Positions 6,007 through 21,061 of a stretch of DNA of 64,000 nucleotides are shown in pieces (within the stretch, counting starts at the first letter, position 1; the number at the start of each line of letters is the position of its first letter). The stretch comes from Qipengyuania intermedia (lineage in GTDB: Bacteria; Pseudomonadota; Alphaproteobacteria; Sphingomonadales; Sphingomonadaceae). Location: NCBI RefSeq assembly GCF_019711615.1, contig NZ_JAIGNS010000002.1:545501-609500 (forward strand), read 5' to 3'. A program made the translations under genes and the position numbers. The notes under the pieces are model-generated. The model was not told the origin of the DNA and made no database searches. It saw nothing but the letters and a program-made list of their open reading frames with translations.

Positions 6007-7503
6007 CTAAACCGGATTGTATTGCGGGAAGTTGAGCGCGCAGGCAGCCAGCATCTTGGCGGTTGCCTCGCGGTCGGCCACGTCGAGCCCCGGGGGAGGC
6101 GCCTGCATCTTGGCAGAGGGCGGGAACGTGCCGTAACCTGCAAAAAGCGCGTGCCAGCTCATCGGGGCATAGGGCGCAGCAATGCCATAGGTCCCCGCAT
6201 TTGCCTCCTCGAGCGAGCGCTGCGTGAACCAGGCGGTCATCATCGCTTTCAGATTATCCGATAGCGATTGGTTGGCGGCGTTTTCGCGCCAGTACCCGGT
6301 GTCGGTCCGCTGGTTCAGGCGGTAATGCGCCACGATATAATCGCGGATCCCCTCGTACCGCGCCGCGATCCTCTGGTTGAAAGCATCGCGGTTCGCGTCG
6401 GTAAATCCCGCGTTCTCGTAGGCTTCTGCGAATTCAAGGGCGGTGGCTATGACGATATGCAAGGCCGTCGCCTCCAGCGGTTCGATGAAGCCTTGCGATA
6501 GGCCGGTGGCGAGGCAATTGCGGACCCAGCTGTTCTCGAGCCTGCCGACCTTCATCTTCAGGAACCGCGGCTGCGCATCGTCTGCATCGACCCCGAGGGC
6601 GCGGGCCAGTTCCGCAGCGGCGTCGTCATCTCCGATATGGCGGGAAGAATAGACATATCCATTGCCCACACGCCAGGTGAGCGGGATCGACCAGCGCCAG
6701 CCTGCGCTCATCGCGATGCTCTCGGTCTGCGGGACGATCGGCCCGGTGTGCGGCGTCGGCATCACCACCGCTGAATCGTTGAAAAGGTTCTCCGCAAATG
6801 GAAGAAAGCGCGCACCGAGTTTCTGCCGGGAAAGCAGGGCAGCAAAGCCCGAGCAATCGACAAACAGGTCGCCCTCGATCCGCTCCCCGTTGTCGCAGAG
6901 CAAGGCCGCAATATCGCCGCTCTGATCAAGCTCCACATCTTCGACCTTCAGCGGGCGGTGGAGAACACCGCGCGGCACTGCCCAGTCGCGCAGGAACGCG
7001 CCAAGCTTGTGGGCATCGAAATGGTAGCCATAGCTTTGCGGGAAAGGAAAGTTCGCCTCCGGCACCGGGCCACGCCTCGAACCGGCGAGTTGCGCAGCGA
7101 GGAACCAGTCGTCCGGATGTGCCGGCACGTCGATGCCCCGGCGGCGCAGGCCGCAGTTCCGCACGAAACCCGGCTCGGTATGGAGGTCGACCGGACCCGG
7201 GAACGGGTGGAAATAACTCTCGCAACCCTCGCGCTCGCTCCAGCCTGTGAAGCGGATGCCGAGCTTGTAGGTGGCATCGCAGGCCGCCATCCACTCCGCC
7301 TCTTCTATGCCGAGGTGGTCGAAGAACGCCTTTAATTGCGGCGTAGAGCCTTCGCCGACGCCGATGATGCCGATCGCCGGGCTTTCCACGACGGTGACAC
7401 TGCCCCCGCGCCCAGCCCATTCGTGGTGCAGCAGGCAGGCGGTGATCCAGCCTGCACTGCCACCGCCGAGGACGACGACGCGAGGAACTGAGCCTGTGCT
7501 CAC
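6007..7503 (-). CDS. Flavin-dependent tryptophan-type halogenase (locus copy 1)
   Basis: This 498-residue protein belongs to the FADH2-dependent tryptophan halogenase family, which oxidises halide to hypohalous acid and passes it through a lysine to the substrate. It has the dinucleotide fold GGGSAGW (13-19), the catalytic lysine region YKLG (Lys80), the halogenase signature WRWSIP (269-274) and a FIEPLEAT segment containing the expected catalytic glutamate. It is the last gene of the maltodextrin operon; its GTG start overlaps the GH97 stop by 4 bp (GTGA). No flavin reductase partner is visible nearby. The natural substrate of such sugar-locus halogenases is not established. It is too divergent to assume free tryptophan. 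Confidence 0.88.
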   Translation of the reverse strand: MSTGSVPRVVVLGGGSAGWITACLLHHEWAGRGGSVTVVESPAIGIIGVGEGSTPQLKAFFDHLGIEEAEWMAACDATYKLGIRFTGWSEREGCESYFHPFPGPVDLHTEPGFVRNCGLRRRGIDVPAHPDDWFLAAQLAGSRRGPVPEANFPFPQSYGYHFDAHKLGAFLRDWAVPRGVLHRPLKVEDVELDQSGDIAALLCDNGERIEGDLFVDCSGFAALLSRQKLGARFLPFAENLFNDSAVVMPTPHTGPIVPQTESIAMSAGWRWSIPLTWRVGNGYVYSSRHIGDDDAAAELARALGVDADDAQPRFLKMKVGRLENSWVRNCLATGLSQGFIEPLEATALHIVIATALEFAEAYENAGFTDANRDAFNQRIAARYEGIRDYIVAHYRLNQRTDTGYWRENAANQSLSDNLKAMMTAWFTQRSLEEANAGTYGIAAPYAPMSWHALFAGYGTFPPSAKMQAPPPGLDVADREATAKMLAACALNFPQYNPV

Positions 7504-9536
7504 CCCTGCGGCACGAACTCGATCGCGAAACCGCCTGCGGGCGCAAGGCGAAGATCGAGCGTCTGGTCGGCGGTTACGGTCATGGTCTCGACATCCATCG
7601 CATGGCGATCCGCGCCAAGTCCATCGGCATTCGCGCCGTCACGCCAGATCGTGGCTGCATAGGACTTGCCTGGATCGAGGAAGGACAGCGGGACTGAGGC
7701 GACGCGCTCTTCGGCATCGGTGACGGCGCCGACATACCAGTTCAGCGTATCGCGATCGCGGCGGGCGATGACGGCATATTCGCCGACCTTGCCGTCGACG
7801 AGCAGGCTCTCTGCCCAGTCGGCAGGAACGCGCTTCACGAAATCGAGAGCGCGAGGATATTTGGCCAGGTTTTCGGGCAGGTCGGCGACCATCTGGATCG
7901 GCGAATAGATCGCGACATAGAATGCCAGCTGGCGGGCAAGGGTGCTCGGGAGGTCGGGAGCGGTCGCCCCGCGCCCTTCGAGCGAGAATACGCCCGGAGT
8001 ATAGTCCATCGGACCCGACAACATCCGCGTGAAAATGAGTTCGGGCACGTGACCCGGATCGTTCTTCGGCACCGCCCATGCATCGTATTCCGCCCCGCGA
8101 GCGCCCTCGCGGCTGACCCAGTTGGGATAGGTGCGGCGTAGGCCGGTGTCCTTGACCGGTTCATGCGGGTTCATGGCGATCTTGTGTTCGGCCGCTTCCT
8201 TCACGACCTTCAGGTGATGGCGGACCATTTCCTGCCCGTCGTGCCAGACGAAGGTCTCGCCCATGCCGCCTTCACCTGCGGGTGCGATGATGCCGCCCGC
8301 GTCGGCGACATAGCCGCTCTTCACGGCGTCGATGCCGAGGCTCTGATAGAAGGCCATCGCGTCTTCGAGCTGTTCTTCGTAGACCTTGATGTTGCCACCC
8401 GTTTCGTGGTGGCCGATGATGCGCACGCCTTTTTCTTCGGCATAGCGCGCCACCTCCACGATATCGAAATCGGGATAGGCGGTGGTGAAGTCGAATTCAC
8501 GGCCATTGCCGAACCAGGTGCCGTCCCAGCCCAGGTTCCAGCCCTCAATCAGGACGCCGCGAAAGCCGTGCTCGGCGGCGAAATGGATGTGCCGTTTGGC
8601 GTTTTCGGTGGTCGCGCCGTGCTTTTCTCCGCTCGCCCAGCTGCTGTCATCGAGATGCATTTCCCACCAGATGCCGATGTACTTGTGCGGCGTGAACCAG
8701 CTGACATCGCCGAGCTTGTTGGGCTCGTTGAGGTTGAGGATGATATTGCTCTCGAACAGGCCCTTGGGGCCGCCTGCGATCTGGATCGTGCGCCATGGCG
8801 TCGTGAATGCGCCTTCGCGAATTACCTTTGGCCCGCGCGGCGAAGGGGCCAGCTGGGCGCGGAAGCGCGTGTCGTCGACGCGGCGCAGCCACATGCCCGA
8901 ATAGTCGACCAGTGCCGCCTCGTGGAACGACAAGTGCAAGCCGTTGTCGAGGACCATCGTCACCGGCGTATGCACGGTCGAAAGTGCGCTCACCGGGGTC
9001 TTCGAATAGAGATATTCATAGCGATTCCAGTCGCCTGCGGGAATCGACCATGCCGTGCCGTCGGAGGCGATGTTGAACTCGGTCAGTTCATCCGCGATGC
9101 GATAGACGGGCTGGCGCTCCGTCTCCGGGAATTCGACGCGGAAGCCCAGGCCATCGTCGAACACGCGCATGCGCACGGTAATCTCGCGCGCGTCTTCATC
9201 GCGCTGGCGGAAGGTGAGGGCCAGTTCGTTGTGAATGTCCTGCACCCACTGGCGCTCGCCCCAGGGCTGCTCCCATGTGCTGGCGTGGCTTTCCTCGCGA
9301 AATGCAACCACCTCGAAATTGCGGCGCATCGGATCCGCGTCGGTGAAGGCGAAGCCGAGGTTCGACTTGGCGATGACCGGCACGCCGTCGCGCGTGACTT
9401 TGTAATAGGGAATGCCTTCGCCGTCGGCGTCGAGCGTTACCGCGATCCGCCCGTCGGGCGAAGTGACCGTTTCCGCCTGCGCCGCAGCGATCGGCAGGAG
9501 AGAGGCGCCGAGGAACAGGGCGATGTGGCGGATCAT
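7500..9536 (-). CDS. Glycoside hydrolase family 97 alpha-glucosidase
   Basis: This 678-residue secreted enzyme is related to Bacteroides SusB (GH97). It has a signal peptide (about 1-21), an N-terminal beta-sandwich (about 22-280), a TIM barrel (about 285-560) and a C-terminal beta domain. Diagnostic sequence includes HEPVKDTGLRRTYPNW (starting at His458, with Glu459) and ARGAEYDAW (with Glu483). These correspond to the calcium- and acid/base-bearing glutamates of inverting GH97 enzymes. It would release glucose from alpha-1,4 maltooligosaccharides in the periplasm. The ATG at 9536 overlaps the stop of the upstream GH13 gene (ATGA); an in-frame extension upstream lies inside that gene and is rejected. 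Confidence 0.93.
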   Translation of the reverse strand: MIRHIALFLGASLLPIAAAQAETVTSPDGRIAVTLDADGEGIPYYKVTRDGVPVIAKSNLGFAFTDADPMRRNFEVVAFREESHASTWEQPWGERQWVQDIHNELALTFRQRDEDAREITVRMRVFDDGLGFRVEFPETERQPVYRIADELTEFNIASDGTAWSIPAGDWNRYEYLYSKTPVSALSTVHTPVTMVLDNGLHLSFHEAALVDYSGMWLRRVDDTRFRAQLAPSPRGPKVIREGAFTTPWRTIQIAGGPKGLFESNIILNLNEPNKLGDVSWFTPHKYIGIWWEMHLDDSSWASGEKHGATTENAKRHIHFAAEHGFRGVLIEGWNLGWDGTWFGNGREFDFTTAYPDFDIVEVARYAEEKGVRIIGHHETGGNIKVYEEQLEDAMAFYQSLGIDAVKSGYVADAGGIIAPAGEGGMGETFVWHDGQEMVRHHLKVVKEAAEHKIAMNPHEPVKDTGLRRTYPNWVSREGARGAEYDAWAVPKNDPGHVPELIFTRMLSGPMDYTPGVFSLEGRGATAPDLPSTLARQLAFYVAIYSPIQMVADLPENLAKYPRALDFVKRVPADWAESLLVDGKVGEYAVIARRDRDTLNWYVGAVTDAEERVASVPLSFLDPGKSYAATIWRDGANADGLGADRHAMDVETMTVTADQTLDLRLAPAGGFAIEFVPQG

Positions 9537-11119
9537 GTGTCGGTCTCCAGAATGATGGCGGCGAAGGGGGGAAGGACGGTGGGCTCTGCGCCGTTGATCG
9601 CGAGCAATGTGCGGCCTTCGCAATCTTCGCAACGTACCGGCTTGCTGCCGAAATTAAAGCGGCAGCGCAGGCGCTGGCCGCCGGCTTCGCGGACCAGTTC
9701 CAGCAGGTCGCCGTCGTGATTGCATTCGGTGACGCGTCCGTGGTGGAGCGCGGGATTCGCCTTGCGCAGGGCAATCGCCTGCTTGGTGAATTCGAGCAAG
9801 GAGTTGGCATCGCCCTGCTGTGCAGCGACCGAACGGGGACGGTTGTCGTCGCCAACCGGGAGCCATGGCGCGGTACTGCCGAAGCCGGCACATTCGCTAT
9901 CGTCCCATGGCATGGGGGTACGCGCACCGTCTCGGCTCAGCGTCAGCGGCCAGTTCGCGATTGCCTCGGGATCGTGCAACTGGTCGAACGGGATGTCGAC
10001 CTGCGTGAGGCCGAGTTCCTCGCCGTAATACAGGATCGCATTGCCGCGCAGGCTCATCAGCAGCAGCGCCTTGAGGCGCGCGAAGGCCTGGCGATCTTCC
10101 GGCTTGCACCAGCGGCTGAGCGCACGGGGCGCGTCGTGATTTTCGAACGCCCAGCTCGGCCAGCCGACGCCCGGCTCCTCCGGCCATTCGGCGAGGGCGG
10201 AACAGACCAGCTGCGGCGTCAGTGCCTCGGCGTAGAGGAAATTGAATCCGTAGGCAGAATTGAGGTGCGCTTCGCCTTCGGTGAAGGCTTTCATCTCGCG
10301 TACGGCATCGTCGCCGCCGACTTCGGCCACGGTGAAGATGCCGTCGAATTCGTCTGTCAGCGCGCGGATGCGCTCGATGAATGCAGGGATGTCCGCATGG
10401 CTCTGGTTGTAGGTCTTGAGCTGGAAATCGAACGGCCGGGTGCGCTGCTTGTCGGTCGGCGGGGCGGGCGGATTGTCGCGCAATTGCGGGTCGTGCATCG
10501 CGAAGTTGAGTGCGTCGATACGGAAGCCGTCCACACCGCGCTCAAGCCAGAATCGCATCACATCGAGAACGGCCTGCTGCGCTTCGCGGTTATGCAGGTT
10601 GAGCTGCGGCTGGCTGGAAAGGAAATTGTGCAGGTAATATTGCCCGCGCCGCGCGTCCCATGTCCACGCCGGACCGCCGAAGACCGACTGCCAGTTCGAC
10701 GGCGGCGAGCCGTCGGGCTTGGCATCGGCCCAGACATACCAGTCGGCCTTGGGATTATCGCGGCTCGATCGGCTTTCGGCGAACCATTCATGGTCGTCCG
10801 AGGTGTGCGAATAGACCTGGTCGATCAGTACCTTGAGGCCGAGCTCATGGGACCGGGCGATAACCGCATCGAAGTCTTCCAGAGTACCGAAGATCGGGTC
10901 GACATCGCAGTAGTCCGAAACGTCGTAGCCGAAATCCTTCATCGGCGATTTGAAGAAAGGCGAAATCCAGATTGCATCCGCGCCGAGTTCGGCAATGTGC
11001 GGCAACCGCCGGGTGATACCGGGCAGGTCGCCGATGCCGTCACCGTTGGAATCCATGAAGCTGCGCGGATAGATCTGGTAGATCACCGCGCCCTTCCACC
11101 AAGGCAGGTTGTCGCTCAT
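9533..11119 (-). CDS. GH13 alpha-glucosidase
   Basis: This 528-residue GH13 enzyme belongs to the oligo-1,6-glucosidase/alpha-glucosidase group. It has the catalytic triad in canonical contexts: nucleophile Asp202 in GFRIDALNF, acid/base Glu266 in FTVAEVGG and Asp329 in FENHDAPR. The N-terminus WWKGAVIYQIYPRSF and the calcium-loop-like DSNGDGIGDL are typical of exo-acting alpha-glucosidases. No signal peptide is seen, so it is probably cytoplasmic and completes hydrolysis of imported oligosaccharides. The start at 11119 overlaps the upstream amylase stop by ATGA. Its stop overlaps the GH97 start likewise. Confidence 0.95.
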   Translation of the reverse strand: MSDNLPWWKGAVIYQIYPRSFMDSNGDGIGDLPGITRRLPHIAELGADAIWISPFFKSPMKDFGYDVSDYCDVDPIFGTLEDFDAVIARSHELGLKVLIDQVYSHTSDDHEWFAESRSSRDNPKADWYVWADAKPDGSPPSNWQSVFGGPAWTWDARRGQYYLHNFLSSQPQLNLHNREAQQAVLDVMRFWLERGVDGFRIDALNFAMHDPQLRDNPPAPPTDKQRTRPFDFQLKTYNQSHADIPAFIERIRALTDEFDGIFTVAEVGGDDAVREMKAFTEGEAHLNSAYGFNFLYAEALTPQLVCSALAEWPEEPGVGWPSWAFENHDAPRALSRWCKPEDRQAFARLKALLLMSLRGNAILYYGEELGLTQVDIPFDQLHDPEAIANWPLTLSRDGARTPMPWDDSECAGFGSTAPWLPVGDDNRPRSVAAQQGDANSLLEFTKQAIALRKANPALHHGRVTECNHDGDLLELVREAGGQRLRCRFNFGSKPVRCEDCEGRTLLAINGAEPTVLPPFAAIILETDT

Positions 11120-12957
11120 TCGGCGGTCTCCGAAACGCGGCACACGGCCCAGCCGAAGGCGGGAAGGGTAAAGGCGGCGCTGCCCGGCGCGGTTACCGCT
11201 GCCGGGCAGGATCCTGCAAGCGTAACGAGGCGGCGGGCATCGTAGCCGAGCATCACATTGGCGCTGCGCTGGGCGCCGGTGGTATTGAACACGGCGAGAT
11301 ATTCCGTCCCGTCGTCCGGATCGAACCTGCTGACGGCGAAAATGCCCGGCTCCTGCTCGTAATGGCGCACTTCCTGGCGGCCGCGGGTGAGGGCGGGGTG
11401 CGCGCGCCGGATGGCGGAGAATTCCGCGATCAGGCGGAACAGCGGATGGCTCTCGTCGAAATTGCTATCGGCAGTGGTCGCGTCCGTGCCGATCAGGTTG
11501 TTGTCATTGTAGACCGCGGTGCGCGAAGGGAACATGTCCTCGCGCGCAAGCTGGTCGTTGCCGTCGCCGACGAAGCCCTGCTCGTCACCGTAATAGATCA
11601 CCGGGCTGCCGCGCAGGCTCAGCATCATCGCGTGGCCCAGCATGACGCGCTTCAGCAGTTCGTCCTGCGAGATATCGGGCTTGTCCCATTTGATGAGCGT
11701 CGAGAAGCGGCCCATGTCGTGGTTGCCGAGGAAGGTGGGCAGCTTGCCCGCGGTCTCCTCGCCGCCTTCGTACAACACGTCGCCGTCGAACATATGCGCC
11801 AGGACGACCGTTCCCTTGTCCCGCCCGAGCAGTTCGCGCATCGCTGCCTGGAAAGCGAAGTCGAGCACGGCGGGCAGTTTGTCGCGGCGCGTATATTCGG
11901 CGATGTATCCGTTTTCCGGGATATCCTTGTAGACCTCACCGAACATGTGGAAGTTCGGGATGCCGTTCTCTTTCGCCACGGCTTCGAGAGCGGGCACGAA
12001 CTCCTGCCAGAAACCGGGATCGACATGGCGCGCGGTGTCGATGCGGAAGCCGTCGACGCCGGTGTTGCGCACCCAGTCGCCGAAAATCTCGATCATGCCG
12101 GCGCGCACGCGCGGGTGTTCGGTAAACAGGTCGTCGAGGCCCGAGAAATCGCCGAACCGGCTGTCTTCGCCCGTGAACGAGCTGTTGCCGCGGTTGTGGT
12201 AATAGATCGGCTCGTTGAGCCAGGCGGGGACCTTCACGTCCTTTTCCGCCTCGGGCACGACCGGGATGTAGGCGTAGTTCGGATCAGTCAGCTTGGCGAA
12301 ATTCTCTTCGCTCCTGTCGCTATCGCCCATGAAGCCTTCGTTGATGCGCGCACCATCGGGGCCGCCGCGCGTCGAATAGGGATAGTCCCCCTTGCTGCGG
12401 TATTCGAAATTGGTCGCATCGCCATCGGCATAGGTGATGACGTCGGCCGTGTGGTTGGTGATGATGTCCATGTAGACCTTCATCCCGCGCGCATGGGCGG
12501 CATCGACGAATGCCTTGAATTCCTCGCGCGTGCCGAAATGGCCGTCGGGGCGGGTGAAATCGGTGACCCAGTAACCGTGGTATCCCGCGCTTTCGTCACC
12601 CGGAGGGCCTTGCACCGGCTTGTTCTGGAAGATCGGCGCGAACCAGATGGCAGTGACACCCAGCTTCTCCAGATAGTCGAGCCGGTCGGTCAGCCCTTTA
12701 AGGTCGCCGCCATGGAAAAAGCCCTTGGCCGTGGGGTCGTAACCCGTCTGCAGCCGGTCGCCTGTGAAATCGCCACGATCATTCGTCGGATCGCCGTTCT
12801 CGAACCGGTCGGGCAGGACGAAATAGACGATTTCCTCGCTCGGCAGGCGGTCCCTGAAATTCACTTCCGGCCCGCTAGAAATGGCAGCAGGCGGGGTCTG
12901 CGCCGTTGCACAGGCCGCGAGGCCCAGGGCCAGGAGGGGAAGGGACTTGCGGATCAT
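11116..12957 (-). CDS. GH13 alpha-amylase family lipoprotein
   Basis: This 613-residue GH13 enzyme is predicted to be membrane-anchored: the signal peptide ends in LAAC with Cys16. Catalytic residues are Asp307 (GVDGFRIDTARH), Glu341 (MFGEVY) and Asp414 (FLGNHDMGRF), with the conserved barrel strand motif VYMDIITNHT at 161-170. It probably cuts long maltodextrin or starch fragments at the outer membrane or in the periplasm. The C-terminal region after about 530 is the beta-sandwich domain C. ATGA overlaps join it to the halogenase upstream and the alpha-glucosidase downstream. Confidence 0.94.
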   Translation of the reverse strand: MIRKSLPLLALGLAACATAQTPPAAISSGPEVNFRDRLPSEEIVYFVLPDRFENGDPTNDRGDFTGDRLQTGYDPTAKGFFHGGDLKGLTDRLDYLEKLGVTAIWFAPIFQNKPVQGPPGDESAGYHGYWVTDFTRPDGHFGTREEFKAFVDAAHARGMKVYMDIITNHTADVITYADGDATNFEYRSKGDYPYSTRGGPDGARINEGFMGDSDRSEENFAKLTDPNYAYIPVVPEAEKDVKVPAWLNEPIYYHNRGNSSFTGEDSRFGDFSGLDDLFTEHPRVRAGMIEIFGDWVRNTGVDGFRIDTARHVDPGFWQEFVPALEAVAKENGIPNFHMFGEVYKDIPENGYIAEYTRRDKLPAVLDFAFQAAMRELLGRDKGTVVLAHMFDGDVLYEGGEETAGKLPTFLGNHDMGRFSTLIKWDKPDISQDELLKRVMLGHAMMLSLRGSPVIYYGDEQGFVGDGNDQLAREDMFPSRTAVYNDNNLIGTDATTADSNFDESHPLFRLIAEFSAIRRAHPALTRGRQEVRHYEQEPGIFAVSRFDPDDGTEYLAVFNTTGAQRSANVMLGYDARRLVTLAGSCPAAVTAPGSAAFTLPAFGWAVCRVSETAE

Positions 12958-14471
12958 GCGGGGACTTCCTGCTGGGGAGAGGCGTTGATGAATTGCTGCA
13001 CGAAATCGAGATGCCGGGGCATCTGCTTCACCTCTTCGATGAGAGCGAATTCCGTGCCGTCGAGGAGCTGGCGCAGTTCCTCTTCTGCGAGCGTGTCGGC
13101 GATCGGGTTGTAGCCCCTCGCTTCCACGCCCTGTCCGACGAGCACCTGGAACCAGCCCACTTCGGTGAACAGTTCCTCGTGCTCGCGGTGAATGAAACCG
13201 GAGGCCCGCCAGTTTTCCAGCTTGGCCTCCAGCGTGTCCGGCAATTCCATGTGCCGGACTGCGTCCCAGAAGGGCTCTCCCTCACGTTCGTTGGCCGTGT
13301 AGTGAAGGACGAGAAAATCGCGGATGCGGGTCCATTCGAAGTCGGCCTGGTCGTTGAACCAGTCGACGATGGCCGGATCGGGCCGGCCGGCGGGGAGGAC
13401 CGACAGGAACCTGCTGATCGCGCTCTGGATGAGGTGGATGCTGGTCGATTCCAGCGGCTCCATGAAACCGGCTGCCAGGCCGAGCGCAAGGCAATTGCCC
13501 TGCCAGTGGCGGCGGCGCTTGCCGGTGGTGAAGCGGATGGGGCGCGGATCGCCCAGCGGTTCGCCATCGAGGTGGGCGAGCAGGGTCGCGGCAACTTCGT
13601 CGTCCGACAGGTGCGCCGAGGAATAGACCATGCCGTTGCCGATGCGGTGCTGCAGCGGGATGCGCCACTGCCAGCCCGCCTTGCGCGCACTGGACCGTGT
13701 ATAGGGTGTGAAATCGCCGCCATTGGCACATGGGACGGCCATGGCGCGGTCGCAGGGCAGGTAATGCGTCCAGTCGTCGAAGCCTGCATCCAGGGCCTGT
13801 TCGATCAGCAGGCCGCGAAAACCGGTACAGTCGATGAAGAAATCGCCCTCGATGCGCTCTCCTCCCTTGAGCGAGAGGGCGGCGATGGTGCCGGTATCGC
13901 CGTGCTGTTCGACCTGCGCAATCATGCCTTCCTTGCGCTCGACCCCGCGGGCTTCCGAGAAGCGCCGGAGGTAGGCGGCATAGAGCCCGGCATCGAAATG
14001 GTAGGCATAGGGCATTTCGGGCGACTGGGGCGTGCGGCGTCCGCGCTGCATGCGCATGGTGCGCGCAGCCAATTCGTTGAGCGAATAGCGGATCAGCGGT
14101 TTGGCCAGGCCGAGCTTTGCGGCGCGCAGCCAGTAGTGCTGGAAGGGGAGCAGTCCGACGCCGCGGCCGATGTTGCCGAACGCGTGCATGTAGCTTTCGC
14201 CCTCGCGCCGCCAGCCGTCGAATTCGATGCCGAGCTTGAAGCTGCCCTTGGTTTCACGGACGAATTCCGCCTCGTCGATGCCGAGTGCGCCGTTGAACAG
14301 ATGGATCTGCGGGATCGTTGCCTCGCCGACGCCGACCGTGCCGATTGCATCGCTTTCGACAAGCGTGATCGAGGTCCCGGGCGGAGCGAAACGGACAAGG
14401 GCCGCCGCTGCCATCCAGCCGGCGGTTCCGCCCCCGGCAATTACGTATCGTTGAATGGTGTCCTGGGTCAT
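12954..14471 (-). CDS. Flavin-dependent tryptophan-type halogenase (locus copy 2)
   Basis: This 505-residue family member carries GGGTAGW (13-19), the catalytic lysine Lys79 in FKLGIEF, the GWQWRIP signature and FMEPLEST with the expected catalytic glutamate. All core catalytic features are intact, so it is not a decayed copy. It is the first gene after the TonB receptor, separated by 113 bp that hold a strong hairpin, and its stop overlaps the amylase start by ATGA. It differs clearly from the second copy at 6007-7503 along the whole length, so the two are old paralogues with possibly different substrates, not a recent duplication. Confidence 0.9.
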   Translation of the reverse strand: MTQDTIQRYVIAGGGTAGWMAAAALVRFAPPGTSITLVESDAIGTVGVGEATIPQIHLFNGALGIDEAEFVRETKGSFKLGIEFDGWRREGESYMHAFGNIGRGVGLLPFQHYWLRAAKLGLAKPLIRYSLNELAARTMRMQRGRRTPQSPEMPYAYHFDAGLYAAYLRRFSEARGVERKEGMIAQVEQHGDTGTIAALSLKGGERIEGDFFIDCTGFRGLLIEQALDAGFDDWTHYLPCDRAMAVPCANGGDFTPYTRSSARKAGWQWRIPLQHRIGNGMVYSSAHLSDDEVAATLLAHLDGEPLGDPRPIRFTTGKRRRHWQGNCLALGLAAGFMEPLESTSIHLIQSAISRFLSVLPAGRPDPAIVDWFNDQADFEWTRIRDFLVLHYTANEREGEPFWDAVRHMELPDTLEAKLENWRASGFIHREHEELFTEVGWFQVLVGQGVEARGYNPIADTLAEEELRQLLDGTEFALIEEVKQMPRHLDFVQQFINASPQQEVPA

Positions 14472-14488
14472 GGCTCTGGGCTCCCGTC

Positions 14489-14529
14489 ACGCCGGATGCG
14501 CGGCTATAGCATGGCAGCGCATCCGGCGT
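14489..14529 (-). other. Intercistronic 13-bp stem-loop, REP-like
   Basis: ACGCCGGATGCGC (14489-14501) is the exact reverse complement of 14517-14529, with a 15-base loop containing GCTATAGC. It lies between the receptor stop and the halogenase start and has no T-tract on the transcribed strand. Such stem-loops between cistrons commonly stabilise the upstream mRNA or lower downstream expression. The arm resembles enterobacterial REP sequence, but that likeness may be chance. Confidence 0.65.
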
Positions 14530-14584
14530 ATCGGGGACGGGGCAGTCGGGAGGAGATGGTGACCGCCCCGCCGTCGATAGCCGA

Positions 14585-17392
14585 TCAGAACTTGTAGGAA
14601 ACGCCGACCAGGTAGGTCCGACCGTATTCCTCGTAGTCGATCACGAACTCGCGATTGCCATCGGTATAGTTGATGAACGGCTCGTCCGTCAGGTTGAGCG
14701 CCTGCAGGGTAAAGGCGAGACCGTCGAGCGACGAGCCTTCCTGGAAACGATAGCCGATCTGAGCATCGAAGATCGATTCCGCATAGGTCTGGCGGAACGA
14801 GCGGCTGGCCGAGATGCCGATGAATTCGGCAAGGAAGCCGGTCCGATAACGGTGGCTGACACGCGCTTCGAAACCGCTGTTTTCATAGTATGCGGTCGAG
14901 TTGACCACCCACTTCGACAGGCCGGGCGTGTCGACATTGAACGTTTCGCCATTGGACAGGGTCACATCGAGCTTGCTGTCGGTGTAGGACGCGCTGGACT
15001 GGACGCCGAAGCCGGGCAGGAAACCGGTCATGTCGCCCAGCGGGAGGGCGATGCTGCCTTCCACGCCGAAGATGTAGCCTTCTGCGCCATTGTCCGGACC
15101 ACCCACCAGGCCCAGCGTCTGGTTGCCGGTGGCAGCGAATGCAATCTGCTGGGTCGGCGTCAGCGTCGGGACGAGGTAGGAGAAGTCGCGCACGACCGGA
15201 GCGTTCGGGTTCACGAAATCGTCCAGCCACTTGTAGTATGTCGCCAGCGCCAGATAGCCTTCGCCGCCGAAATACCATTCGAACGACGCGTCGATGCCGT
15301 CTGCGACATAGGGACGCAGTTGCGGGTTGCCGCCGCCACCGCTGAAGATCGAGTTGAACCCGTCGGTCGGCGGCTGGTTGGCGATGCTGGCGTTATACGA
15401 CGCGTTCAGCTGGTCCATGCGCGGACGGGCCAGGGTACGGGCTGCACCGAGACGCAGCTTGATGTCCGGCGTGATTTCGAAGTTGAACGTCGCGCTGGGC
15501 AGGACGTGGGCATATTCGTCGCCGCCCTCCACGGGGACGAGAGCAGCGCCGATACCGCCATTCGACTGGAAGCCGTCCGAACTCTGGTCGGTGAAGACCA
15601 GCTGCACGCCGATATTGCCTTCGACCGGGATGGACCCGAGCGAGCCTTCGAGGTCGGCACGGAGCCAACCGTTCCAGACCTTCTCGTTGACGGACCAGTC
15701 GCCCGGGAACGGCAGGCTGGAGCTCTGCACGTCGGTCAGGAGGTAGGTGCCGTTGTTGATCAGGACGAAGGGATCGTAAGCAACCTGCGGACCGAAGCCG
15801 AGGAAGTCGAGGCTGGCGATCGGGGTCAGCAGCGCATCGCTCGGGATCGGCAGGCGGGTTACCGCGCCGTCGGCGGCGTAGGCAGAGGGTCCGCCGGCCA
15901 GGCTGAGGAAGTTTTGCACGATGTCACGCGACTTGGTGCGATCGTCGAAGGCGACGCCGGCAACCAGGTTTTTGACCCAGCCGCTGTCGACCTTGCCGAC
16001 TACTTCCGCGCGGGCCGACCACAGTTCGTCGTCGGTCGAGGTGTCGTTGATGAAGCCTGCCTGCACGATGCCGTCGGCACCCCAGCCACGCGGGTCGGTC
16101 AGCTGGATGAGGCTGGTGTCCGAATAGTCGATCGTGTTGTTGAAGTTGAACGGAAAACCGCTCGACGGGCGGGTGTAGGTCACCGTGTCCGACGGACCGG
16201 AAGCATTGGCCGCGTAGGTCAGGCCCGAGTAGCTTTCGATCTGCTGCAGGCGGCGGTCCGAGCTCGAGTAGGAGACGTCGAAATTGAGGAGGACGTCGTC
16301 GTTCTCGTACTTGGTGTTCCAGCCGGCAGCGAAGGTTTCGGTGTCCTTGCGGTCGTAATCGTTGCGGACCACGGGCTGGACGCCGGTGAAGGTCACGCTG
16401 TTCGGGAAATCGCCGCCGCTGTTGTCGGCGATGGTCGCGCCCGAACCCCAGCCCGGGTTGAGCGGGAACTCGATGCCGCGCTGCGGGATACGCTCGCGAT
16501 AGTCGGCGTAGAAGATGTCGATCGTGGTGTTCCACTCGAGGCTCGGCTCCCATTCGAGGGTGCCGAACACGCCGAGGCGGTCGAGGTCGACCGACTTGGC
16601 GAAGGGCTTCATGCCGCCAAGCACCGTGTAACCGGCGTCGTTGGGATAGCCCCAGGCGTTGAACTTCTTCACCTGGCTCGGGCTCGACTGATAGGCAACG
16701 CCGACCGCGAGGCCGAGCGTGTCGTCGGCGAACTGGTCGACATAGGTGCCGGTTGCGCGATAGCCCCAGCCCTTCACGTCGGGGTTGAGCGAGCCGTCTT
16801 CGTTGAATTCGAGGCGACCCGAGAGCGAGACGATGCGCTCACCCTTGGCGAGCGGGCGGATGGTGCGAAGGTCGACTGTACCGGCGAGGCCCTGGCCGAT
16901 GAGACCGGCGTAAGGCACCTTGTAGATGACGCCCTGGTCGATGAGTTCGGCCGGGTACTGGTCGTATTCGACGGCGCGGTTGTCGCCCGAGGACACAAGC
17001 TGGCGGCCGTTCAGCAGCGAGGTCGAATAATCGGGACCGAGGCCGCGGATCGAGAGGCTCTGCGCACGGCCGTCGATACGCTGGACGGCGAGGCCGGGCA
17101 GGCGGCCCAGCGTTTCGGCGATCGAGACGTCTGGCAGCTTGCCGATGTCTTCCGAGCTGAATGCTTCGGCGATAACCGGCGCGTCGCGCTTCAGGTTGAT
17201 CGCGGTTTCAAGCGCCTGGCGGTAGCCTTCGACGACTATGATGTTGTCTTCGCCCGGCTCTTCCTGCGAGGCGGTTTCATCGCCCGGTTCGACCGAGGCT
17301 TCCTGCGCCATTGCAGGCGTAGCGACTGCGGCCAGTGCGATGGTGACGGCGCCGGCGCTGATGCCCCCGACGAGCTTGGAACGAAATGCCAT
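14585..17392 (-). CDS. TonB-dependent outer-membrane receptor, maltodextrin locus
   Basis: This is a 935-residue TonB-dependent receptor of the Xanthomonas/Caulobacter carbohydrate type. It has a signal peptide ending around AMAQ, a short acidic linker, a plug domain (about 50-190, with DNIIVVEGYRQALETA, the ALETAINLKRDAP segment and SLSIRGLGPDYSTSLLNG), then a 22-strand barrel ending in an aromatic-rich YLVGVSYKF. It would import oligosaccharides using TonB energy. The ATG at 17392 is preceded on the coding strand by AGGGAGAG; an in-frame upstream extension is not needed. Neighbouring amylases and the LacI gene indicate a maltodextrin-like ligand, comparable with Caulobacter MalA. The leader contains a candidate LacI operator and two small hairpins. 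Confidence 0.93.
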   Translation of the reverse strand: MAFRSKLVGGISAGAVTIALAAVATPAMAQEASVEPGDETASQEEPGEDNIIVVEGYRQALETAINLKRDAPVIAEAFSSEDIGKLPDVSIAETLGRLPGLAVQRIDGRAQSLSIRGLGPDYSTSLLNGRQLVSSGDNRAVEYDQYPAELIDQGVIYKVPYAGLIGQGLAGTVDLRTIRPLAKGERIVSLSGRLEFNEDGSLNPDVKGWGYRATGTYVDQFADDTLGLAVGVAYQSSPSQVKKFNAWGYPNDAGYTVLGGMKPFAKSVDLDRLGVFGTLEWEPSLEWNTTIDIFYADYRERIPQRGIEFPLNPGWGSGATIADNSGGDFPNSVTFTGVQPVVRNDYDRKDTETFAAGWNTKYENDDVLLNFDVSYSSSDRRLQQIESYSGLTYAANASGPSDTVTYTRPSSGFPFNFNNTIDYSDTSLIQLTDPRGWGADGIVQAGFINDTSTDDELWSARAEVVGKVDSGWVKNLVAGVAFDDRTKSRDIVQNFLSLAGGPSAYAADGAVTRLPIPSDALLTPIASLDFLGFGPQVAYDPFVLINNGTYLLTDVQSSSLPFPGDWSVNEKVWNGWLRADLEGSLGSIPVEGNIGVQLVFTDQSSDGFQSNGGIGAALVPVEGGDEYAHVLPSATFNFEITPDIKLRLGAARTLARPRMDQLNASYNASIANQPPTDGFNSIFSGGGGNPQLRPYVADGIDASFEWYFGGEGYLALATYYKWLDDFVNPNAPVVRDFSYLVPTLTPTQQIAFAATGNQTLGLVGGPDNGAEGYIFGVEGSIALPLGDMTGFLPGFGVQSSASYTDSKLDVTLSNGETFNVDTPGLSKWVVNSTAYYENSGFEARVSHRYRTGFLAEFIGISASRSFRQTYAESIFDAQIGYRFQEGSSLDGLAFTLQALNLTDEPFINYTDGNREFVIDYEEYGRTYLVGVSYKF

Positions 17393-17512
17393 AATCGTGC
17401 TCTCCCTGATGGCCGGTCCTGTTATCTTTTGGACCGACTCGATACCCCACAGGCGGCGGAAACTCGCCCGTATGTCGTCCTGAATACGGGTCAGGAGGCG
17501 GGCTCCGGAAGA

Positions 17513-17528
17513 CAGCATACGTATACGC
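17513..17528 (-). promoter_or_regulatory. Candidate LacI operator upstream of the TonB receptor
   Basis: This imperfect palindrome has core ATACGTAT (17517-17524) and overlaps CGTATACG (17520-17527). The same CGTATACG octamer occurs before the MFS gene at 19436-19443. It lies about 120 bases upstream of the receptor start codon. Assignment to the LacI protein encoded between the two sites is an inference. Confidence 0.45.
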
Positions 17529-17580
17529 AACCGGTTCGCACGGAGCTGAGTCGCGCAAATGTCACACAGTTCGAGGCCGG

Positions 17581-18273
17581 TCAGTCGAGAAACAGATTGA
17601 GCGTTAGGCGGCCGAGTTTCGGATCCGGATCGGGCATGAAATCCGGCTTTAAATCAGCGCAGTGAAGCGTGTTTCCGCGATAGATGACTATGGAATTAAA
17701 TGTGTCGGAGACGCGGTGGATCTGCTCGAAGATCTCGGTGTCGCCGGATATGTAGGCGGGACCCGGAAGGCCATATTCGGCAATCGCGGCTTCGAGTTCC
17801 AAGCGGTAGGTATCGAACCGCTCGCCATCGACACTTTCGAAGCCGGTAGCCCGCTGGCGGTAGAAGGCAGTCCCGCCGCGATGGGCCTTGTCCAAGTAAA
17901 GGAGAACCGCGAGCCGTTCCCGCTCGGTGCCGTCGAAATGCGGCAGGCGCTGGATTGGTGCCAGCTGTCCAGGCTTATGCGTTACGAGAGACAGGTAGCA
18001 TTCGCGGAACCGCGGCTGGCGGTTCAGTTGAAAGACTTCGATCAGGTGGTCCCGCAGCGGCTCGACCAGAGGCATGGCGATCTTTTCGGAGACGGCGGCG
18101 CGGATGCCGGGATAGAATAGTCCGTGGGTCCCGAACCGGTGTCGCGCGGCGATCTCCACCACCGCATCGGCATCCACCAGCGCCTCGGACACGGCAACGA
18201 CTGGCTGCGCTTCGAGGCCGAATGTGTCGGTCGAGAGCGCGGCACGGGGCGAAAGGGCGAGGGGGCTTTCCAT
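17581..18273 (-). CDS. DUF6445-like protein, possible Fe(II)/2-oxoglutarate oxygenase fold
   Basis: This 230-residue cytoplasmic protein matches what I recall of DUF6445, a family often found beside tryptophan-type halogenases and TonB receptors. A facial-triad-like pattern is visible: His112-x-Asp114 in LPHFDGTE, distal His204 in GNTLHCADL, and Arg222 in GRLTLNLFL, as in Fe(II)/2-oxoglutarate dioxygenases. The intervening LAVLLYLDKAHRGGTAFY resembles the double-stranded helix core of prolyl hydroxylases. Substrate and activity are unknown. It is divergent from the LacI gene and is followed by 188 bp before the receptor, so it probably has its own promoter. The family name is from memory. Confidence 0.7.
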   Translation of the reverse strand: MESPLALSPRAALSTDTFGLEAQPVVAVSEALVDADAVVEIAARHRFGTHGLFYPGIRAAVSEKIAMPLVEPLRDHLIEVFQLNRQPRFRECYLSLVTHKPGQLAPIQRLPHFDGTERERLAVLLYLDKAHRGGTAFYRQRATGFESVDGERFDTYRLELEAAIAEYGLPGPAYISGDTEIFEQIHRVSDTFNSIVIYRGNTLHCADLKPDFMPDPDPKLGRLTLNLFLD

Positions 18274-18361
18274 CGTGAACTAGCCCCATACCGCGTTTTT
18301 ATTCGCTTTGAAGGGTCTGCAACTTTGCATGATCGCTTCGCCGCGCTTATGGTCCTGCCGT

Positions 18362-18379
18362 GGACCGGTATTCCGGTCC
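18362..18379 (+). promoter_or_regulatory. Inverted repeat in the LacI gene leader
   Basis: GGACCGG (18362-18368) and CCGGTCC (18373-18379) form a perfect inverted repeat with a 4-base centre, immediately before the GGAGGAGAGAG ribosome-binding site of the LacI gene. It may be an autoregulatory operator or an RNA hairpin that limits translation. It does not share the CGTATACG core of the other candidate sites. Confidence 0.4.
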
Positions 18380-18390
18380 GGAGGAGAGAG

Positions 18391-19422
18391 ATGGGACGCA
18401 AGCCGACTGGTCGCCCGACCAGTTTCGACATTGCCTATGCTGCCGGAGTATCGCAGCCGACCGTCAGCCGTGCGCTGCGCGGCGATCGCTCGGTGAGCGA
18501 GCAGACCCGCCAGAAGATCCAGCAAATCGCGCGCGACCTCAATTACACGGTCGACAAGAACGCATCCTCCCTTCGCTCCCAGCGCTCCAACACGATCGCC
18601 CTGCTTTTCTTCGAGGACCCCACGCCCGACGAAAGCATGATCAACCCGTTCTTCCTCGCCATGCTCGGGTCGATCACGCGGGCCTGCGCCGACAGGGGGC
18701 TGGACCTGCTGATTTCCTTCCAGCGCATGGAAGACGACTGGCACGTCAAATACCAGGACAGCCACCGTGCGGACGGACTGATCCTGCTCGGCTATGGCGA
18801 TTACACGACATATACCCCCAAGCTCCAGAAGCTCATCGCCCAAGGCACTCACTTCGCGCGCTGGGGTTCGGTCAGCCTCGACTCCAGCGGGGCGACCGTC
18901 GGTACGGATAATGTCGATGCAGGCCGCAAGGTCGGGGAACATCTGGTCGGTATCGGAAAGCGCGATATCGCCTTTCTCGGCGACGCGGATGAAACATGTC
19001 CCGAATTTCTCGGACGCTACACGGGCCTGTGTAAGGTCATGGAGGAGGCGGACCTCCCTGCGCCGCCGCGCTTCGATGCCATCACGACCGAAGAGGCGGG
19101 TTACGCAGCGGCCAAGGCGCTCTTGTCCAGCGAGATGGCATGCGACGCAATCTTTGCCGCAAGCGACCTCATTGCAATCGGCGCCATGCGGGCCATCGCC
19201 GAGGCGGGCAAACGCGTACCCGACGATATCGCCGTGGTCGGTTTCGACGATATTCCCGCGGCCAGCCTGACCACCCCGCCGCTGACCACCGTAACCCAGG
19301 ATGTGAAGGGCGCTGGCGAAACACTGGTCGAGGCGCTTCTGGCCCAGATCGACGAGCGCGACGTGAAGCCGCGCAAGCTGGCTGGAGAACTGGTGATCCG
19401 GGGCAGCACCGCAAAAAACTGA
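18391..19422 (+). CDS. LacI-family transcriptional regulator of the sugar locus
   Basis: This is a 343-residue LacI/GalR repressor. The N-terminal helix-turn-helix is at about 10-31 ([20 protein letters not shown]), followed by the hinge and a periplasmic-binding-protein-like sensor (about 65-340) with the typical [19 protein letters not shown] near the end. The ATG at 18391 has a very strong ribosome-binding site, GGAGGAGAGAG; the frame is open upstream but the longer form has no LacI homology. It lies between the receptor operon and the MFS gene and is the natural candidate to control both, responding to a maltose-like or transport-derived sugar. Confidence 0.93.
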
Positions 19423-19428
19423 CGCGCT

Positions 19429-19444
19429 ACGTATTCGTATACGT
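19429..19444 (+). promoter_or_regulatory. Candidate LacI operator upstream of the MFS gene
   Basis: ACGTATTCGTATACGT is palindromic at 14 of 16 positions around a central CG, as LacI-family operators usually are. It contains the CGTATACG octamer also present before the TonB receptor. It lies 79 bases upstream of the MFS start codon and 7 bases after the LacI stop. Binding by the adjacent LacI protein is inferred. Confidence 0.5.
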
Positions 19445-19522
19445 GTTTGCGCAAAGGCCTACTTCGTGCGAGCCATCGCATCGTGACCGGGCAATAAGTC
19501 CGGCCGGGGAGAGGATTGTACG

Positions 19523-21061
19523 ATGGCGACTTCGGCCGCACCATTACCGACGCGCAAGCCGCAGATGGGCTGGGGACAGCTCGCCAATATCAGCTTCGGT
19601 TTCTTCGGCATCCAGATCGGGTTCGTTCTTCAGAACTCCAACATGAGCCGGATATTCCAGACCGTCGGCGCATCGCTCGACGATCTGCCCGCGCTGTGGG
19701 TCGCGGCACCGTTGACCGGCCTGATCGTGCAGCCGATCATCGGTCACCTTTCGGACAAAACCTGGAACCGTTTCGGGCGCCGGCGGCCCTATTTCATGAC
19801 CGGTGCGATCCTGGCTGCGCTGTCGTTGCTGCTCATGCCTCTCGCACCTGCCTTCGGCGCGCCGCTGCTGTTTGCTGCGGCCTTGTTGTGGGTTCTCGAC
19901 GCCAGCCTCAACATCTCGATGGAGCCGTTCCGCGCGTTCGTCGGCGATATGCTCGACAAGTCGCAGCACGCCACGGGTTATGCCGTGCAGACCGCCTTTA
20001 TCGGGGCGGGCGCGGTGGTCGCGGCTATCTTCCCATGGTTGCTCGAGCAATTCGGCGTCAGCAATGTCGCAGCGGCGGGCGAGATACCGGATACCGTGAG
20101 GTGGAGCTTCTGGGCCGGCGCAGCCGCCCTGTTTGCGGCGATCGGCTGGACCGTCGTTTCGACGAAGGAATACAGCCCGGAAGAAATGGCTGCATTCGAG
20201 GCCGAACGAGAGGTCGAGGCGGGCCAGAGCGTGCGCGCTCTCGCCGCCAAAACCTACACCTCGGCAGCCATGTGGCTGGTTGCCGGTGTCGCCGTCATTC
20301 TCGCGGTCTCGCCGCTCGGTCTGGAGAAGGAAATCCTGCTGCTGGGCGGCTTGCTCGTCGCATACGGGCTGCTCAGCGCGATTGGGATCTCGATGGCCAA
20401 GCAGGGCAAACACGCCAATATGCTGTCCAGCATCGTCGGCGATTTTTCCGGCATGCCGGACACGATGAAAAAACTGGCCGTGGTCCAGTTCTTCAGCTGG
20501 TCATCGCTCTTCATCATGTGGATCTATTCCGGGCCGATCGTCTCGCAGTATTTCTACGGCAGCGCCGATCCGACCACCGTTGCCTATAACGAGGGCGCGA
20601 ACTGGTGGAACCTGATCTACACGGTGCAGAACGCAGTGGCGGCGATTGCGGCGCTGGCGGTCCTGCCGGTTTTGTCCAGGCGTATCGGCAAGGCGCGAAC
20701 GCACATGACCTGCCTGCTCCTTGGGGCGCTCGGTTTCCTCGGCTATTTCTTCCTGCGCGATCCCAACCTGCTGATCGTATGCGAGATATTGAAGGGAATT
20801 GCGTGGGCCTCGATCCTTGCCATGCCTTACGCCATCCTCGCCAGCAGCCTGCCGCAGTCGAAGCTTGGCATCTATATGGGGCTCTTCAACATTTTCATCG
20901 TGGTGCCGCAATTGCTGGTGGCGACGGTCATGGGAAGCGTGATGAACGCTTTCTTCCCCGCCGATCCGATCTGGACGATGCTGTTTGCCGCCGCAAGCTG
21001 GACGATAGCGGCGCTTGCCATGCTTCGAGTATCCATTCCGGGGGAGAGTGCCCATGCGTAA
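19523..21061 (+). CDS. MFS sugar transporter, SLC45-like (maltose/sucrose type)
   Basis: This 512-residue major-facilitator protein has about twelve hydrophobic helices. The loop 2-3 signature [16 protein letters not shown] (74-89) and the overall layout match the GPH/SLC45-like group that includes plant sucrose carriers and Caulobacter MalY. It probably carries maltose or small maltodextrins across the inner membrane with protons. The ATG at 19523 follows GGGGAGAGG. The 3' end overlaps the next gene by 8 bp, so it is cotranscribed with the GH13 gene downstream. A LacI-type operator candidate lies upstream. Confidence 0.92.

Follow-up and report, generated by a model that had tools for sequence, protein, structure and literature searches.

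Flavin-dependent halogenases paired with TonB-dependent receptors: a locus of Qipengyuania intermedia and candidate tryptophan sites in predicted surface loops

The window analysed here is a 64,000-nt stretch of Qipengyuania intermedia (assembly GCF_019711615.1, contig NZ_JAIGNS010000002.1, positions 545,501 to 609,500), and the system in question is a minus-strand run of genes in which two flavin-dependent halogenases, HAL-A and HAL-B, accompany a TonB-dependent receptor (TBDR). In order, the run comprises a DUF6445 protein, the TBDR, HAL-A, a GH13 amylase, a GH13 alpha-glucosidase, a GH97 glycosidase and HAL-B, with a gap of 113 bp between TBDR and HAL-A and a 4-bp overlap at each of the four junctions that follow HAL-A. 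Divergently, the plus strand encodes a LacI regulator, an MFS transporter and another GH13 protein (Table 1). Coordinates refer to the whole window, and gene starts were picked from the translations; for the TBDR, which carries plug and barrel domains (PF07715 and PF00593) with strands predicted in a structural model, the start is the ATG at residue 47 of a long open reading frame (ORF). From the GH13, GH97, LacI and MFS neighbours we infer that the TBDR transports maltodextrin. Coordinates and junctions agree with the original prediction as to the order halogenase, amylase, alpha-glucosidase, GH97, halogenase behind the TBDR and its 4-bp overlaps. Its further statement, that halogenation is made in fixed ratio with the starch enzymes, was misleading: the ratio was inferred from the overlap only, and in the survey described below the halogenase goes with the TBDR while GH13, GH97 and LacI vary. 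Scanning the window for tRNA genes and against Rfam (gathering threshold) gave no match. In several related loci of the same maltodextrin type (mal loci; L024, L034, L119 in our numbering, where L denotes loci and G genomes) a putative esterase (PF00756) sits between GH97 and HAL-B.

Table 1. Features of the locus, in window coordinates
Feature	Position	Strand	Basis
TonB-dependent receptor (TBDR), TIGR01782 family, MalA-like	14585..17392	−	TIGR01782 532.8 bits, cut-off 310
Codon of receptor Trp437 (DPRGWG), predicted loop L4, candidate HAL-A target	16082..16084	−	Trp frequency by clade
Codon of receptor Trp315 (M-start numbering; NPGWGS), predicted loop L3, candidate HAL-B target region	16448..16450	−	Model topology; residue Trp+3 tracks HAL-B
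HAL-A, flavin-dependent halogenase, BrvH/Xcc4156 group	12954..14471	−	PF04820 600.6 bits
HAL-B, second flavin-dependent halogenase, separate clade	6007..7503	−	PF04820 417.6 bits
DUF6445 protein, predicted 2-oxoglutarate/Fe(II) oxygenase	17581..18273	−	PF20043 216.4 bits
GH13 amylase, exported-looking N-terminus (by eye)	11116..12957	−	PF00128; 4-bp overlap with HAL-A
GH13 alpha-glucosidase, signal peptide not apparent by eye	9533..11119	−	PF00128 409.5 bits; 4-bp overlap
GH97 glycosidase, exported-looking N-terminus (by eye)	7500..9536	−	PF10566, PF14508, PF14509; 4-bp overlap
LacI-family regulator ORF, true start near 18.4 kb	18124..19422	+	PF00356 at ORF residues 102-142
MFS sugar transporter	19523..21061	+	PF07690, PF13347
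GH13 alpha-amylase-family protein, start uncertain	21015..22472	+	PF00128 118.7 bits

HAL-A and HAL-B matched PF04820 (Trp_halogenase, cut-off 21 bits) along their whole length. The flavin motif, catalytic lysine and WxWxIP signature named in the original prediction were found intact when the translations were read, so that GxGxxG, catalytic Lys, WxWxIP and catalytic Glu are present in both enzymes (GGGTAGW, FKLGIEF, WQWRIP and EPLESTS in HAL-A; GGGSAGW, YKLGIRF, WRWSIP and EPLEATA in HAL-B). The nearest solved relatives of HAL-A are 9luq (502.5 bits), 6y1w (481.6 bits) and 6frl (438.6 bits), compared with 292 bits for PrnA, and its closest named relative, from Q. gaetbuli, is 97% identical; we take 6frl to be BrvH and 6y1w to be Xcc4156. 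HAL-B, with 5lv9 (282.9 bits) and 6frl (267.9 bits) as best solved matches, falls outside the BrvH/Xcc4156 group, lies at roughly the same distance from the solved Trp halogenases as from 6frl, and in a tree of 283 relatives (matches below 60 bits or below 60% of the profile removed) belongs to a 72-member clade with mostly Ala, not Ser, after the catalytic Glu. Across these 283 sequences the catalytic Lys is kept in 275 and the catalytic Glu in 269; 8 of the 15 lacking Lys or Glu are apparently cut by the end of the fetched stretch, and the other 7 are the divergent L338 and L339 and degenerate members of tandem arrays. In such arrays, where three to four halogenases lie by one receptor, one copy each lacks both Lys and Glu (L070 8586, L082 8569, L091 10112, L124 9312, L128 11775) and is possibly a pseudoenzyme partner or scaffold. 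L338 (7024-9912) and L339 (7281-10343) are halogenase-like ORFs of about 1000 aa with Arg for the catalytic Lys and a SapC-like match about 4.5 kb off, in loci without a TBDR match.

Many members of the halogenase family are untested, and in HAL-B Ala replaces Ser after the catalytic Glu; such enzymes might have ceased to halogenate and instead oxidise (hydroxylate) a residue or an imported compound. We regard this as highly improbable, given that Lys, Glu, GxGxxG and WxWxIP are kept and that the relatives BrvH and Xcc4156 are reported to brominate in vitro. HAL-A and HAL-B belong to a known family, in which the role proposed below would be new. No flavin reductase gene was found in the window operon. 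Elsewhere in this genome a Flavin_Reduct gene stands behind a further halogenase (L005 10868-11458), and flavin reductase genes likewise adjoin a halogenase in L114 (8132-8716) and a TBDR in L116 (1615-2202); these neighbours may be the natural supplier of reduced flavin adenine dinucleotide (FADH2). By eye, a signal peptide is not apparent in HAL-A or HAL-B, and the amylase and GH97 begin with one; since the halogenases look non-exported by this inspection, they would meet the receptor only before export. Both also match the phage tryptophan-halogenase family phrog_2928.

Within the order, with at most 10 candidates scored per genome, a family match was obtained in 104 of 147 genomes, over the cut-off in 99 and with a best E of at most 1e-50 in 83. 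For the neighbourhood comparison, 40 halogenases of the order were hand-picked, one per genome, from the score-sorted listed matches, with weak and HAL-B-type enzymes under-represented; 20 halogenases outside the order were also hand-picked, as were many receptors. A TBDR lay within 4.6 kb in all 40 loci of the order, often within 100-250 bp, with the nearest halogenase downstream of it on the same strand in 30, upstream in 3 and on the opposite strand in 7. Other neighbours came and went: LacI was present in 26 loci, GH13 in 19, MFS in 15, GH97 in 14 and GH3 in 13, and companion families in fewer (JmjC/Cupin_8 8, SapC 7, DUF6445 6). The same enzyme family therefore stands beside receptors with starch (21/40), GH3 (13/40) and other (6/40) neighbours, and the TBDR is the sole tagged family besides the halogenase in all 40, the untagged genes being only partly annotated. 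Outside the order, 15 of 20 halogenase loci had a TBDR nearby; the five without a match are L320, which adjoins a 1039-aa ORF that is receptor-like by eye, L337, apparently alone, L338 and L339, both lacking the catalytic Lys, and L322. The window genome contains four halogenases, all in TBDR loci: besides HAL-A and HAL-B, one is divergent from a TBDR and next to LacI, MFS and GH3, and one follows a TBDR at a distance of two genes, these being sulfotransferase-like. Among the 22 TBDR matches of this genome (in 21 frames), only two exceed the TIGR01782 cut-off, and both are next to a halogenase. Halogenation coupled to sugar metabolism was rejected as the principal explanation because the halogenase stays with the receptor while glycosidases and regulators vary. 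A precursor of the type of ribosomally synthesised and post-translationally modified peptides was also discarded, as the TBDR–HAL-A gap leaves no room for it; small ORFs elsewhere were not searched systematically.

Receptor sequences were compared according to their halogenase linkage. Receptors with at least 150 bits and at least 85% of the profile were retained (193 of 212 in the first collection) and identical ones counted once, giving 272 distinct receptors, of which 170 were linked (a halogenase no more than 3.5 kb away; median gap 142 bp), 99 were unlinked and 3, with a companion gene present and the halogenase not in the data covered, were dropped. In the first set (n = 183), Trp amounted to 13.6 per 1000 residues in linked and 10.2 in unlinked receptors, with Tyr and Phe nearly equal, and the motif [NTGS]WG was singled out. 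Over 269 receptors its weighted frequency per receptor was 0.88 linked vs 0.12 unlinked, compared with 1.09 vs 0.68 for [NTGS]YG and 2.35 vs 2.10 for [NTGS]FG. Among 86 held-out receptors, added after the motif had been chosen, it occurred in 22/36 linked and 8/50 unlinked (p = 2.4e-5, uncorrected for kinship), and in receptors sampled by receptor family (n = 152) in 35/53 linked and 15/99 unlinked, including 27/33 with a HAL-A-type neighbour. Pagel's test of halogenase link against [NTGS]WG yielded a likelihood ratio (LR) of 19.8 (p = 5.5e-4; YG control p = 0.25), with the motif lost about 12 times faster in unlinked lineages (rates 1.89 vs 0.16); not one of 60 random motifs of similar prevalence reached an LR of 19.7 (maximum 13.6). 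Counted over independent pairs, [NTGS]W[GNSTA] gave 9.4 plus and 2.0 minus, and Tyr and Phe counts were null.

The positions of these tryptophans were read from a model of the window receptor built with 57 relatives (935 aa, predicted local distance difference test (pLDDT) 85.1, predicted template modelling score (pTM) 0.84), in which loops were assigned from the alternation of long and short connections. The model places Trp437 (PRGWG) in the predicted extracellular loop L4 and Trp315 (NPGWG) in the predicted loop L3. The ratio of Trp density in linked to that in unlinked receptors is 2.61 in L3, 1.96 in L4 and 2.13 in L5, and an excess is also seen in the Trp-poor loops L6-L9. For strands the ratio is 1.27 and for periplasmic turns 0.88; the control ratios in L3-L5 are 0.97-1.26 for Tyr and 0.76-1.24 for Phe. 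The weighted fraction of receptors with a Trp in L3-L5 is 1.00 in every linked class vs 0.68 in unlinked receptors. A Trp in L3 is found in 0.87 of the receptors with only HAL-B in view (within 1.5-kb flanks, a HAL-A farther off being possible) vs 0.25 of the unlinked ones, and at the column of Trp437 the weighted Trp frequency is 1.00 in the 84-member halogenase-linked mal clade vs 0.14 in unlinked receptors.

Losses of HAL-B among 18 close relatives served as natural experiments (L138, whose locus ends before the HAL-B position, was left out). HAL-B is intact in 14 (in L008 up to residue 342, where the contig ends) and lost or decayed in 4, which form three lineages on the receptor tree: L010 retains pieces (16975-18491), L021 a remnant (17039-17319), and in L017 and L023 the gene is absent from the locus. 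In L010 and L021, full-length HAL-A is present beside the decayed gene. A single one of 1058 receptor columns shares no residue between the two groups, namely residue 318, three after Trp315, which is Gly or Ser in 14/14 receptors with HAL-B and Thr in 4/4 without; the next-best column is residue 312, three before Trp315. The separation score was reached by 4 of 1825 matched subsets, the observed one included, and a column with one subset-private residue was found for 28 of the 1825; with unmatched random sets of four a separating column appeared in 86/400, so that it is not rare there. A scan for association with HAL-B over the whole mal clade (14 pairs) returned no Trp among the columns listed, and other residues, several of them in L3.

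The converse case is offered by three mal-type receptors without an adjacent halogenase, L194, L340 and L341, which have no Trp at either site (Trp437, Trp315). In total, L340 has 2 and L341 has 4 Trp, compared with 15 in the window receptor. Their neighbours are LacI, MFS, two GH13 and GH97 (L194), LacI, MFS and GH13 (L340), and MFS and GH97 (L341); the genome of L194 gave one weak halogenase match only (20.5 bits), and in the genome of L341 (G004) a halogenase is encoded at another locus. As L194 and L340 are 95% identical, these receptors count as two lineages at the most. Both Trp are likewise missing from two more unlinked relatives, L311 and L342, where no sugar gene was tagged in the stretches covered.

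These comparisons bear on the possibility that the halogenases act on the aromatic part of an imported ligand, such as an aromatic glycoside or a tannin- or flavonoid-linked sugar, and that the loop tryptophans reflect its binding. Such a role would suit the placement of both halogenases in an uptake operon, the reported acceptance of free indoles by BrvH and the Xcc enzymes, the fitness of Trp-rich loops for carbohydrate or aromatic ligands, and the fact that linked receptors are mostly in sugar loci. We nevertheless judge it improbable, no search aimed at genes for such ligands having been made: the same enzymes stand beside starch, GH3 and other receptors with the TBDR as the sole tagged constant, mal receptors without adjacent halogenase still have starch enzymes, and, among orthologous receptors, the loss of HAL-B goes along with a change at one loop residue.

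A number of observations weigh against halogenation of the receptor loops. Concerning sites, many HAL-B-bearing mal receptors are without Trp in L3, and all four HAL-B-lacking receptors keep Trp315; the effect in L3 therefore shows coupling and not the exact residue, and action of HAL-B on Trp315 everywhere was ruled out by the many exceptions. In a column scan of the 269 receptors no Trp column led, the first rank being taken by a plug Asn (column 663), and one Trp column as a universal site was accordingly dismissed; we read this as misalignment of the loops and use of different loops by different clades (L4 in the mal clade, the start of L5 elsewhere). The topology comes from a single model, and in loops L10 and L11 it is the linked receptors that have less Trp (ratios 0.25 and 0.36). 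The strict motif is carried by 15/99 unlinked receptors and lacking in 37/170 linked ones, and the unlinked L170, L204 and L268 have NW in a loop; their genomes (G474, G468 and G056) have halogenases elsewhere. Concerning statistics, only 10-14 independent contrasts are available, the strict motif gives 4.2 plus, 1.5 minus and 8.3 ties over 14 pairs, and for the looser WG the LR is 11.2, a value that five of the 60 random motifs also attain. When HAL-A type serves as the trait, p is 9e-4 for the WG motif and 0.004 for the YG control, so that this version of the test discriminates poorly. Concerning sampling, L007-L086 were collected by halogenase similarity, and a recognised sugar gene lies near 112/170 linked vs 5/99 unlinked receptors (within 4 kb of the data covered, the shorter flanks covered for unlinked receptors accounting for part of the difference). 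Unlinked receptors being rarely near sugar genes, sugar binding may account for some of the Trp excess, and ligand type is a confounder for which only L194, L340 and L341 control well; among receptors with a sugar gene the motif is present in 90/112 linked vs 1/5 unlinked (p = 0.0085).

The same points lend substance to an explanation by inheritance only, in which halogenase loci travel with Trp-rich clades of sugar receptors and the substrate is another protein or a metabolite: the clades of linked receptors are for the most part distinct from those of unlinked ones, the independent contrasts are few, and the ligand confounds them. It is set back by the Pagel LR of the motif, above that of 60/60 random motifs, by the enrichment of Trp and not Tyr or Phe, in L3-L5 rather than in strands or turns, by the convergent residue change in three HAL-B losses, and by the absence of both Trp from mal receptors without an adjacent halogenase. 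On balance we consider inheritance alone unlikely, while giving it serious weight.

Among the hypotheses of the original prediction was that an aromatic residue of the receptor is modified, alongside halogenation of an imported aromatic glycoside and defence chemistry. The first of these is favoured by the linkage, the loop-Trp motif, the Pagel test, the HAL-B losses and the mal receptors without an adjacent halogenase, and we assign a probability of about one half to the reading that, prior to export, HAL-A and HAL-B act on tryptophans in the surface loops of their partner receptor and halogenate them. From the gene linkage, intact motifs, folds and covariation observed here, we infer substrate, site, timing and benefit as follows. 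HAL-A and HAL-B would be cytoplasmic flavin-dependent halogenases dedicated to the neighbouring TBDR, using FADH2, O2 and bromide or chloride to halogenate Trp side chains of the future extracellular loops. The site of HAL-A would most likely be Trp437 in L4, and that of HAL-B would most likely lie in L3 around Trp315. Modification would take place while the receptor precursor is unfolded, before Sec export, and the indole so modified would serve to adjust the aromatic face presented to the maltodextrin, or to shield a loop at the cell surface. As a companion, DUF6445 would be a 2-oxoglutarate oxygenase, which may hydroxylate the same receptor. A variant in which the halogenated loops block phages or bacteriocins that use the receptor, and thus constitute a defence trait, differs from this scheme in purpose only and not in chemistry. 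TBDRs are common phage receptors and the sites lie in predicted extracellular loops; as nothing in the data points to defence, no search aimed at defence genes having been made, we give this variant very little credence.

The fold of the DUF6445 protein (model pLDDT 95.5) was compared with the PDB using Foldseek, which returned 36 matches at E <= 0.001, of which 34 are 2-oxoglutarate oxygenases, in part by their titles, and 2 are uncharacterised; a sequence search of the PDB gave no match up to E = 1. The HxD...H...R pattern noted in the original prediction is present as H112, D114, H204 and R222 and invariant in 19/19 aligned members. The 2-oxoglutarate-type assignment made there is thus backed by the fold match, and a predicted 2-oxoglutarate/Fe(II) oxygenase is supported by modelled fold and motif. 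The protein (17581-18273) also matches the phage family phrog_1644, annotated 'minor coat protein' (E 3e-13). DUF6445 is patchily distributed, being found in 16/299 genomes of the phylum and once in the window genome. It often occurs in runs of TBDR, SapC, JmjC/Cupin_8, one or two halogenases and DUF6445 (e.g. L132, L134, L137, L139), and several further DUF6445 loci (e.g. L130, L133, L136) gave no TBDR match. An apparent DUF6445-TBDR fusion was discarded, the long ORF in L051 and L068 being a shadow frame across the divergent regulator. At another TBDR of the window genome (L006 8756-12964), a sulfotransferase-like protein with a PKSGS motif, a TPR-Sulfotransfer_3 protein and a halogenase lie in a row; for the small protein (P0010) the sulfotransferase reading was made from the motif by eye, the Pfam scan giving no match, and its gene is a candidate Tyr-sulfating partner.

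Taken together with the receptor loci described above, such companions raise the tentative and somewhat doubtful prospect of a widespread, previously unrecognised system in which TBDRs each have their own writers, decorating loop Trp and other residues before export; the writers would comprise type A and type B halogenases, Cupin_8/JmjC and DUF6445 oxygenases, SapC and sulfotransferases. If this were true, halogenated Trp would be regular on the outer surface of Sphingomonadales and related bacteria. If the loop-tryptophan reading of HAL-A and HAL-B is correct, outer-membrane transporters of bacteria would undergo halogenation as a protein modification, in an order with strong matches in 83/147 genomes, and enzymology would gain natural peptide substrates for tryptophan bromination.

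Among known systems, the free-tryptophan halogenases PrnA, RebH and PyrH, which have a biosynthetic context, presumably share the fold family and the catalytic Lys and Glu of HAL-A and HAL-B; against PrnA, HAL-A scores about 200 bits lower than against 9luq. The lantibiotic enzyme MibH acts on Trp within a peptide. HAL-A matches it distantly (5uao, 218.7 bits), and the 113 bp before HAL-A are too short for a precursor peptide. DUF6445 shares its fold with 2-oxoglutarate/Fe(II) oxygenases such as ABH2, P3H1, PHD2, EctD and GriE (Foldseek E from 4.9e-5, TM about 0.4-0.5), together with HxD...H...R. The maltose loci of MalA (Caulobacter crescentus) and XCC2469 combine a TBDR with alpha-glucosidases, a sugar transporter and a repressor, as here, and in contrast to the window locus the available text describing them mentions no halogenase (PMC1790865). 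That TonB-receptor loci with halogenases are known, as the original prediction held, applies at the level of annotation; a literature search, with most subscription journals outside its coverage, found no paper linking these halogenases to a TBDR or proposing receptor halogenation. The gene table of a colony-morphology screen in Sphingomonas has one hit in a 'Tryptophan halogenase' gene (PMC11340318).

The closest counterparts of HAL-A are BrvH and Xcc4156, which it matches at 438.6 and 481.6 bits with the same motifs. BrvH (Brevundimonas BAL3) is reported to brominate indole and not free Trp, its native substrate is described as unknown, and a second halogenase gene adjoins brvH (PMC5945002), the present locus likewise having two. 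Xcc4156 (Xanthomonas campestris) is described as having an open active site suggested to accept 'possibly even peptides', likewise with native substrates unknown, and MibH is called a peptide halogenase in the same paper (PMC7336383). Bromination in vitro by BrvH and Xcc4156, and acceptance of free indoles by BrvH and the Xcc enzymes, are covered by these two sources (PMC5945002, PMC7336383), the text of which, figures apart, does not mention TonB, a difference from the setting described here. HAL-B differs from BrvH in belonging to another clade and being no closer to 6frl than to Trp 5/6-halogenases. Enzymes of the BrvH/Xcc4156 type have, as far as these texts go, been expressed, crystallised and assayed without a known native substrate; the present comparison names the partner receptor as a candidate substrate and, within it, Trp437 and the region of Trp315.

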